A stretch of 64,000 bases of DNA from Brevinematales bacterium (lineage in GTDB: Bacteria; Spirochaetota; Brevinematia; Brevinematales; GWF1-51-8): assembly GCA_020059465.1 (NCBI GenBank), contig JAGVBZ010000041.1, forward strand, positions 73,112 through 137,111, written 5' to 3'. Of this stretch, positions 11,141-50,104 are shown piece by piece. The notes under the pieces are model-generated. The model had not been told where the DNA came from. It worked only from the letters and a program-made list of their open reading frames with translations, and did not search any database. The translations under genes and the position numbers were made by a program. The first letter of the stretch is position 1. Every line of letters starts with the position of its first letter.

Positions 11141-11767
11141 ATGAAAACAATGCTATTCGCGGTCATTATTTCAGGGGGAACTTTCCTGCTCTTTTACTTC
11201 GGGCTGTCGAACACCGGCCTTCCCATATCGTTCGGGATATCGGTCGCGGCGTTTATTGCCGCTCTTCTCGCAAGCCCGTTCCGTAAACCCGCGCCCGCAA
11301 ATAAAACCAGACCTGAAGAGAAGCCCGCCGGATCGCCCGCAAAAACCAATCAGTCCGCTCCCGACGACCTGATCGCCGAGGGCAACCGGCGTATCGCGGA
11401 AATCCTCGAGAACGCGAAACGGATTAAGAGCCAGGAGATCAAGGACAAGATCGCCGCGATTGTCGAAATATCCGGGAGAATTTTCGAGGACCTCCGGCAG
11501 GATCCGTCAGATGTCAAGAAGGCGAAAAAGTTCGTCCTGTACTACCTCGATTCCACGTCGATCATCGTGAAAAAGTACGCCGACCTCTCGAAGTATACCT
11601 ACACCAACCCTGAGATGAACTCGACCCTCAAGCGCGCCGAGAACCTGCTCGATTCCATCAAGGAGGCGTTCGAGAAACAACTCCTTGCCCTTCTGGAGAA
11701 CGACGTAATGGACCTCGATGTGGAGATCAAGACTCTGGAGAGCACGTTCAAGATGGACGGGTATTAG
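11141..11767 (+). CDS. XpaC-like (5-bromo-4-chloroindolyl phosphate hydrolysis family) membrane protein
   Basis: 208 residues from ATG 11141 (GAGGTAATC). Two close membrane helices (about 3-45), a Pro/Ala/Lys-rich linker (about 50-75), then a long helical domain with IAEILENAKRIKSQEIKDK and KAKKFVLYYLDSTSIIVKKY, characteristic of XpaC proteins, usually paired with TelA-type toxic-anion-resistance proteins; no telA is seen here. Function of the family is poorly known. The last 23 bases before its stop are repeated beyond the toxin-antitoxin pair. Confidence 0.7.
   Translation: MKTMLFAVIISGGTFLLFYFGLSNTGLPISFGISVAAFIAALLASPFRKPAPANKTRPEEKPAGSPAKTNQSAPDDLIAEGNRRIAEILENAKRIKSQEIKDKIAAIVEISGRIFEDLRQDPSDVKKAKKFVLYYLDSTSIIVKKYADLSKYTYTNPEMNSTLKRAENLLDSIKEAFEKQLLALLENDVMDLDVEIKTLESTFKMDGY
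11739..11761 (+). repeat. Left copy of 23-bp direct repeat bracketing the MntA/HepT cassette
   Basis: Lies inside the 3' end of the XpaC-like gene (encoding STFKMDG). The same 23 bases recur at 12412-12434, 673 bp downstream. Flanking bases differ (G versus A before; TATTAG versus ATTAAA after), so the identity is bounded. Confidence 0.9.
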
Positions 11768-11768
11768 G

Positions 11769-12065
11769 ATGAATAGAGCGGAAATATTATCCATCCTCCA
11801 TGCGCACCGGGAGGAACTGAGGGAACTTGGGCTGAAACGAATCGGGGTATTCGGCTCGTCGGCGCGTAACGAATCGTCCGAGGACAGCGATATCGACCTG
11901 ATGGCTGAGTTCGAGGCCGGTCGGTTAAGCTATCGCAACTATATGAAACTGTACAATTTTCTCACGGAGATTACGCATCGGAAAATCGACTTACTGACCC
12001 CCGGCGGAGTCAGCCCGTATATCAAGCCGTATATCGATAAGGAAATCGTGTATGAAGAATTATAG
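11769..12065 (+). CDS. mntA: MntA-type nucleotidyltransferase antitoxin
   Basis: 98 residues from ATG 11769, 1 bp after the XpaC-like stop. Minimal nucleotidyltransferase fold: GSSARNESSEDSDID fits the GSX10DXD signature, with a third acidic residue in RKIDLL at about 75. In characterised HepT/MntA pairs this enzyme transfers AMP to a tyrosine of the HEPN toxin and so neutralises it. Overlaps the toxin gene by 14 nt, antitoxin first. The 3' end of the preceding gene (positions 11739-11761) is repeated after the toxin gene. Confidence 0.88.
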   Translation: MNRAEILSILHAHREELRELGLKRIGVFGSSARNESSEDSDIDLMAEFEAGRLSYRNYMKLYNFLTEITHRKIDLLTPGGVSPYIKPYIDKEIVYEEL

Positions 12066-12387
12066 GGAATTCCTGCGTCATATTCTTGATGAAACCGAGT
12101 ATCTTCTTAAAGAATGCCGGGGATTAACTTTCGATGTGTTTTCTAACAACGATACATTAAAGAGAGCATTCGTAAGAAGTCTGGAGATTATCGGCGAAGC
12201 GGTTAAGCAAATCCCAGATGAAATTAAAGATGATTATTCAAATATCGAATGGAAAAATCTTGCCGGGCTAAGGGATGTTTTGATTCATCATTATTTCGGG
12301 GTTGATTTTTATATCGTTTGGGACATCGTAAAAAACGAGATACCCAGACTAAGCCAAGATATCAAGGAAATAATAAATGAGGATTGA
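12052..12387 (+). CDS. hepT: HepT-type HEPN (DUF86) ribonuclease toxin
   Basis: 111 residues. The catalytic and modification motif RDVLIHHY fits RX4HXY exactly: Arg and His for RNA cleavage and the Tyr that MntA AMPylates. The rest is the all-helical HEPN fold (FVRSLEIIGEAVKQIP, IEWKNLAGL). HepT proteins cleave RNA when not modified. The gene is visibly more AT-rich than the neighbouring DUF188 gene, which suggests acquisition. Start ATG 12052 lies inside mntA. Confidence 0.88.
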   Translation: MKNYREFLRHILDETEYLLKECRGLTFDVFSNNDTLKRAFVRSLEIIGEAVKQIPDEIKDDYSNIEWKNLAGLRDVLIHHYFGVDFYIVWDIVKNEIPRLSQDIKEIINED

Positions 12388-12411
12388 TGATTTGGAGTGT
12401 TTTTTTATCAA

Positions 12412-12434
12412 AGAGCACGTTCAAGATGGACGGG
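12412..12434 (+). repeat. Right copy of 23-bp direct repeat bracketing the MntA/HepT cassette
   Basis: Identical to 11739-11761. It lies 25 bp after the hepT stop and is in frame with the following DUF188 gene, with no stop between 12384 and 13058. Confidence 0.9.
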
Positions 12435-12566
12435 ATTAAAAATACTATTTTGACACCCTTCGACATTTTCAAACTCTTTTTCCTTTGCGTCTCTGTGGCA
12501 ATATATTTTACCGCACAGTTCATCCCCGTTTCCAACGACACACCTGGAGTAAAGGAGCATACATAC

Positions 12567-13058
12567 ATGATACGGATACTCGCCGACGCCGACGCGCTGC
12601 CTGTCGCGGTCAAGGAAATCCTGTACCGTGCGGCGGAACGTGTCGGGGCGCGGCTGATACTGGTCGCCAATCAGCCCCTCGGTCACCCGAAAAGCCCCCT
12701 GATCTCATGCGAGATCGTGGCGTCCGGGCCCGACGAGGCCGACCACAGGATAGTGGAGATGACCGCCCCGGGAGACCTGATTATCACCGCGGATATCCCC
12801 CTCGCGGCGCGGGTGGTGGACAAGGGAGGAGTCGCGCTCAATCCCCGGGGCACGCTCTATACTCGCGAGAACGTCAAACAAGCCCTCGCCGTGCGCGACC
12901 TGATGAGCGAGCTTCGCGATCAGGAAATCCGTACCGGCGGCCCCGCGCCGTTCGGCCAGAAAGACCGGCAGGCGTTCGCGAACCAGCTCGACCGTTATTT
13001 GCAATTCCTGCGGGAAAGTATTATAATAACTTTGCGGGTTTCTATCGATTATTCTTAA
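12567..13058 (+). CDS. YaiI/YqxD family protein (DUF188, PIN-like)
   Basis: 163 residues from ATG 12567 behind AAAGGAG. Begins MIRILADADALPVAVKEI, with LIITADIPLAARVVDKG and LNPRGTLYTRENV, the conserved blocks of the YaiI/YqxD family. The family has a PIN-like nuclease fold with acidic residues in DADALP and TADIPLA; biological role unknown. The frame is open to 12384 through the right repeat copy, but the ribosome binding site and family length support 12567. Confidence 0.9.
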   Translation: MIRILADADALPVAVKEILYRAAERVGARLILVANQPLGHPKSPLISCEIVASGPDEADHRIVEMTAPGDLIITADIPLAARVVDKGGVALNPRGTLYTRENVKQALAVRDLMSELRDQEIRTGGPAPFGQKDRQAFANQLDRYLQFLRESIIITLRVSIDYS

Positions 13059-49636: not shown

Positions 49637-49710
49637 ACGCTTTCCCGAAAATCCGATTTGGGGATAACCGACATGAGAAATTATAGAAGAAAGCGCAAAT
49701 TATTGCAAGT

Positions 49711-50039
49711 ACTGCGTACGGCTAAACCCATTACGCAGTATCGAGCCAATAACAACCGTTAGCCTGCGCTCACTGCGTACGGCTAAGCCCATTACAATAC
49801 ATAGCGCTTATTGTAATCGTCAGCCTGTGATGGTACTGCGTACGGCTAAACCCATTACGCAGTATCGAGCCAATAACAACCGTTAGCCCGCGCTCACTGC
49901 GTACGGCTAAACCCATTTCACTACATAGCGCTTATTGTAATCGTCAGCCTGTGATGGTACTGCGTACGGCTAAACCCATTACGTAGTATCGAGCCAATAA
50001 AACCCGTTAGCCCGCGCTCACTGCGTACGGCTAAGCCCG
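49711..50039. repeat. 124-bp tandem repeat array with internal hairpins
   Basis: Units start at 49711, 49835 and 49959 (period 124); the third is cut at about 50039. Each unit is two related half-units, both opening with ACTGCGTACGGCTAA (49711, 49772, 49835, 49896, 49959, 50020). In the first half, ACTGCGTA and TACGCAGT form a perfect 8-bp inverted repeat; in the second, ACAATA and TATTGT pair in the first unit. Fills the 468-bp gap between the giant kinase and the 50105 gene, which has no gene. A lone relative lies near 18934. Confidence 0.92.
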
Positions 50040-50104
50040 AAATCGCGCAATCGTCATTATCGATAACCTGCCCGTAATGAAAGGATAAATACGGCAGACG
50101 CCCC

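Follow-up and report, generated by a model that had tools for sequence, protein, structure and literature searches.

Few genes are known to be as mobile as those of toxin-antitoxin (TA) modules. For restriction-modification genes, insertion with a long duplication of the target was reportedly described by Nobusato et al. in 2000 and by Furuta et al. in 2010. The available text of two reports derives such insertion from genome comparison and describes inserts that have no transposase and lie between long direct target repeats of variable length, of the order of 100 bp (PMC3874152, PMC3031569); the inserted units are expected to undergo tandem amplification later, through crossovers between the repeats (PMC3031569). 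The units considered here are likewise of the addiction type, lack a transposase and are flanked by long, variable target repeats, but they are TA units (mntA/hepT, HEPN/MNT, VapBC-like and HicBA), they sit mostly at gene ends, and for mntA/hepT they were surveyed in both bacteria and archaea. In Microcystis, a ParDE-like module is found behind an orthocaspase gene between two identical 152-bp direct repeats (PMC7935541). It resembles our units in that a chromosomal TA pair lies immediately behind a gene and between identical direct repeats; however, it is a single case, its repeats lie outside the gene and contain inverted repeats, and the accessible portion of that report offers no reading as a target duplication (PMC7935541). 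Repeats flanking TA pairs in mycoplasmas are termed recombination scars in the part of the source available (PMC8562856). The literature searched, which included few subscription papers, contains only such single flanked cases and no account of target duplication as a general feature of TA units. The repeats described below connect TA modules with restriction-modification genes, where insertion of this kind had been inferred, and they bear on how solitary chromosomal TA modules enter and leave chromosomes without a transposase. Their best explanation, and in our judgement a probable one, is insertion with a long, variable target duplication, followed by recombination between the repeats.

The locus from which the analysis started lies in a window of 64,000 nucleotides from a Brevinematales bacterium, and all its features are on the forward strand. 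The sequence AGAGCACGTTCAAGATGGACGGG occurs there twice, at 11739-11761 and at 12412-12434, with a spacing of 673 bp and identity over all 23 nt; with one gap allowed, 27 of 28 positions match (GGGTATTA against GGG-ATTA). An exact match of 23 nt at this range is not due to chance. The left copy is coding sequence in the 3' end of the upstream target, an xpaC-like gene (11141-11767; PF10112, Pfam E 9.8e-36), and the right copy begins 25 nt past the hepT stop. The earlier note had described this repeat correctly except in one respect, the left copy being said to abut the xpaC stop codon (11765-11767), from which 3 nt separate it (GGG TAT TAG). Between the copies lie an mntA-like antitoxin gene, coding for a minimal nucleotidyltransferase (11769-12065; PF01909, E 1e-11), a hepT-like gene for a HEPN ribonuclease toxin (12052-12387; PF01934, E 5.7e-27), whose reading frame overlaps that of mntA by 14 nt, and an AT-rich spacer (12388-12411; 25% G+C). 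Both motifs, as defined in the available text of the work on HepT/MntA (PMC7641770), are intact: GSX10DXD of MntA reads GSSARNESSEDSDID and RX4HXY of HepT reads RDVLIHHY. With its adjacent PF01934 and PF01909 genes, the pair therefore belongs with the class I HEPN/MNT (HepT/MntA) systems, which in the same source have this gene arrangement and both motifs; how such pairs insert into chromosomes is not treated in that text (PMC7641770). It is a small putative addiction module, in which, judging from the motif, MntA would neutralise HepT by adenylylation. The G+C content is 53.6% for xpaC, 49.5% for mntA, 36.0% for hepT and 61.5% for the downstream DUF188 gene of the YaiI/YqxD family (12567-13058; E 5.4e-47), which bears out the remark in the earlier note that hepT is the more AT-rich of the last two. 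The DUF188 start, conserved in relatives, is the ATG at 12567, preceded by 'aaaggag'; the in-frame extension upstream of it (12384-12566) shows no conservation in relatives and is probably untranslated, noncoding DNA. Deletion between the repeats had been predicted to fuse the xpaC and DUF188 frames, and joining the two flanks at the repeat does give one open frame, but the joined frame would run through this unconserved and probably noncoding extension.

In the genus, the locus was compared between this genome (G000) and three other members (G001, G002 and G003), whose xpaC orthologues are 85-87% and 68% identical to that of G000. In all four, mntA directly follows xpaC at the same junction. 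The 29 bases ahead of the mntA start are the same in G001 and G002 and present in a diverged version in G003, and the identity of mntA to that of G000 is 90% in G001, 90% in G002 and 60% in G003. The fate of hepT varies: in G002 it is present but interrupted, at the end of the contig, by an inserted sequence, and in G001 and G003 it is gone just past its first codons. In G001, G002 and G003 the xpaC end is not repeated, and PF10112 has no match in nine other searched genomes of the order. Since the xpaC-mntA junction is common to the four genus members, it is not a fresh boundary, and the pair is not one recent cassette placed between the two copies, as had been proposed. No empty xpaC site was found among these genomes; mntA is instead fixed in all four, the very outcome that the earlier note had named as contradicting its proposal. 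Nor does the 23-mer stand beside other TA pairs, where that note had suggested looking for it, for the 3.19-Mb genome holds no further copy with up to three mismatches allowed. What stands of the proposal is insertion that restores the 3' end of the target, because the same layout occurs at unrelated loci of this genome and in other phyla. Since all four species have mntA but one alone has the right copy, a single simple insertion fits only if recombination came later. For xpaC considered singly, the right 23-mer might be explained as a recent templated copy of the gene end, made by replication slippage or strand switching and unrelated to an old mntA/hepT insertion; a genus-wide junction beside an unmutated right copy confined to G000 agrees with this. 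Such an event would, however, leave unexplained the same layout at many other TA units, here and elsewhere, and we consider it unlikely, although not negligible.

To find comparable loci in this genome, direct repeats 250-3000 bp apart were collected over 1.88 of its 3.19 Mb (59%), and those that fell within paralogous genes, formed tandem arrays, or belonged to ABC-transporter motifs or terminators were dropped. At six further loci of the 1.88 Mb, target-derived direct repeats, with a sequence of their own at each locus, flank TA units. The 3' end of ntrC on contig 17 (L101:11470-12830) carries two mntA/hepT units and three repeat copies of 22-31 nt: ahead of each unit the ntrC 3' end recurs in near-identical form, and a third, decayed copy comes after them. 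The two units stand in the order A-B in G000 and B-A in G002 and G001 (L080:6300-7620); in G003 a single unit is present, and the second repeat has decayed. Downstream of gyrB there is a HEPN/MNT unit in an exact repeat of 44 nt. PIN/VapC pairs (VapBC-like, with no Pfam match for the VapB-like partner of either) are found downstream of an aminotransferase gene, with a repeat of 64 nt, and, on the opposite strand, downstream of a HypD-like gene, with a repeat of 71 nt that includes one indel. HicBA lies upstream of glyQ, where the glyQ promoter is repeated (39 nt, exact). The sixth locus, at 32.8-33.6 kb of contig C36 (L103:12819-13590), has mntA/hepT downstream of a membrane-protein gene in an imperfect repeat, whose right-hand copy could be what is left of a tandem paralogue that G001 and G002 retain; this locus was therefore treated separately. 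Another candidate, at C11:173845, was set aside as a member of a local repeat family. Most mntA/hepT loci in the genus have no detectable repeat, which decay could explain.

The tandem units at ntrC could be taken as a sign of a larger tandem duplication, followed by a deletion that left the second copy of the gene end by accident. But units A and B are just 33% alike and their repeats are nearly identical, and the gyrB, aminotransferase and glyQ units are single copies of unrelated families; for the other loci such a history is already largely refuted, and as an account of the whole it is very improbable. The repeats themselves vary with the locus, from 22 to 71 nt, and share no sequence or common core between loci, and a comparison of ten inserts by eye found no shared ends. 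Because repeat sequence and length differ at each locus and the inserts have no ends in common, site-specific integrases, integrons and transposons do not fit. The terminal inverted repeats of a transposon or MITE, and a target duplication of fixed length, were not seen, the length of the repeat varying and the inserts sharing no ends. An integrative element with its own site-specific recombinase and a fixed attachment site is disfavoured as well: the unit consists of mntA and hepT only, and there is no common attachment core. Small size, movable arrays and restoration of the gene end are features that our units share with integron cassettes and with integrative elements located at gene 3' ends, but ours have no shared recombination site or integrase, and their repeats are specific to the locus. 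An integrase acting in trans, which would insert modules at gene 3' ends and regenerate the gene as integrative elements do, would suit the position of the units and the restoration of the gene by one copy. It would have to act on repeats of 22 to 71 nt that are unrelated from locus to locus and lack a common core, on inserts without shared ends, in either orientation and with units that hold no integrase gene, so that we give it hardly any credence.

Four bracketed inserts contain no recognised TA genes. They are an ORF of 354 aa that follows a bacterioferritin-like gene (L291:4339-5675, contig C19 of G000), a 409-aa ORF (L283:17984-19372, contig C8), a 179-aa ORF with a Pfam match to Borrelia_P13, which hints at spirochaete kinship of the host (L247:2311-2847, contig C29), and a DUF2283 gene with a 244-aa ORF adjoining a Fic/Doc gene. 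The insertion process is therefore not limited to TA units. As a rough yardstick, the probability that at least 7 of 12 inserts would be TA units is 5e-5 if one insert in ten is assumed to be of this kind.

For two of the TA loci, relatives lack the insert. In G001, G002 and G003 there is a single gyrB end and no HEPN/MNT unit, and gyrB runs through GACATCGG into GTAA (CGG-GTAA). In this genome the right copy continues as CGG-GTAG and the left copy as CGG-ATAA (ATAATATAG). Comparison of GTAG with the GTAA of the relatives indicates that the ancestral continuation survives in the right copy, the new stop codon being supplied by the insert. At glyQ, G001 has no hicBA, both flanks are conserved, and one promoter copy stands beside a 51-base run of N. 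An empty site with one copy is thus seen in relatives at gyrB and at glyQ, and not at xpaC. Insertions recur at the 3' end of the aminotransferase gene, a hot spot: G003 has a different insert of 2.3 kb with its own 47-nt repeat (L238:5043-7334, contig C77 of G003), and G002 has a third insert, without a repeat. HicBA is present ahead of glyQ in both G000 and G003, and the repeats there match at 39 of 39 positions within G000 and at 35 of 35 within G003, but at 26 of 34 between the two genomes. Either there were two insertions at the same place, or the copies have been homogenised by recombination. The HypD-like locus agrees, but its repeats show a single difference between species over 30 positions, and the case for homogenisation therefore comes mainly from glyQ.

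Identity of the repeats within a species, as at glyQ, would also result if the unit were a circular cassette carrying a piece of the target's 3' end, which integrates by a single homologous crossover and excises and re-integrates in the same way. This would give the observed layout exactly, including r-A-r-B-r arrays and the swapped order at ntrC. To reach a new locus, however, the circle would already have to carry the gene end of that locus; no repeat sequence is common to the loci, and 23 bp is short for homologous recombination. As the step of insertion, the circular cassette seems to us quite improbable; the same crossover could be a later step of shuffling instead.

Insertion with target duplication, followed by recombination between the repeats, would proceed as follows. 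A TA unit would insert so that a stretch of the target is duplicated around it, and the end of the host gene would stay intact because one copy of the repeat completes the gene. Once in place, the two copies would keep recombining, with duplication, loss, reordering and homogenisation as the outcomes. Recombination of this sort would account for an old xpaC-mntA insertion with a perfect right copy in one species only, for the opposite orders of the ntrC units between species, and for glyQ repeats that are identical within species and different between them. As to the route, our guess is that a DNA fragment is captured between two points, offset from one another on sister chromosomes, at which a break or a strand switch occurs. 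Products with a duplicated gene end would survive and those in which it is deleted would be lost, which is also a guess.

The layout is not confined to this genus. We surveyed 80 HepT loci from 80 genomes of many phyla, 76 of which gave units that could be tested, scoring a unit as bracketed when a direct repeat with a score of at least 20 enclosed it; 560 windows shifted along the same DNA served as control. Bracketing was found for 18 of the 76 units and for 5 of the 560 shifted windows (Fisher P 7e-14). Five of the bracketed loci are doubtful, since they look like dispersed, tandem or low-complexity repeats (L142, L145, L168, L175 and L201); without them the count is 13 of 76 (P about 2e-9). 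The other 58 of the 76 units have no detectable repeat, and decay could explain this repeat-free majority. Around HepT units of other phyla the repeats are 24 to 142 nt long, and the target ends occur on either side of the unit. In a nanoarchaeon, a 57-nt repeat is the 3' end of a gene including its stop codon, a layout like that of the window; in a WOR-1 bacterium a recR-like gene is repeated over its first 69 nt, in a patescibacterium the repeat is the start of the downstream gene, and at other loci a convergent gene contributes its end. For HicA, a sample of loci from the phylum, repeat-rich array loci among them, gave no significant excess, with 4 of 30 bracketed against 8 of 106. It may be, although we hold this only tentatively and at somewhat less than even chances, that TA modules as a class have spread in bacterial and archaeal chromosomes by a shared process, free of transposase, in which tens of base pairs of target sequence are duplicated, mainly at the ends of genes, the repeats then serving as standing recombination sites for loss, amplification and reordering. 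The repeats are a readable scar, which marks the point of insertion, shows the form of the empty site and allows excision products to be searched for. With this scar at about a fifth of the mntA/hepT loci sampled across phyla, the idea is testable at large scale in existing strain collections.

Repeats of other kinds occur in the same DNA. Between the right 23-mer and DUF188, at 12482-12500, there is a half copy (CTTTGCGTCTCTGTGGC) of a genus-wide dispersed repeat. The dispersed repeat type CTCTGTGTCTCTGTGGC is present at 25 sites across the four genus genomes, and a reversed control pattern had no matches; the region around the right copy, sought as a dispersed repeat in its own right, is found elsewhere only as short fragments. 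In G001, inverted copies of the dispersed repeat flank a 133-aa ORF at the place that hepT has in the window (L027, 2560-3100). Finally, a 124-bp unit with the core TACTGCGTACGGCTAAACCCATTA is repeated in tandem at positions 49709-50040 of the window.
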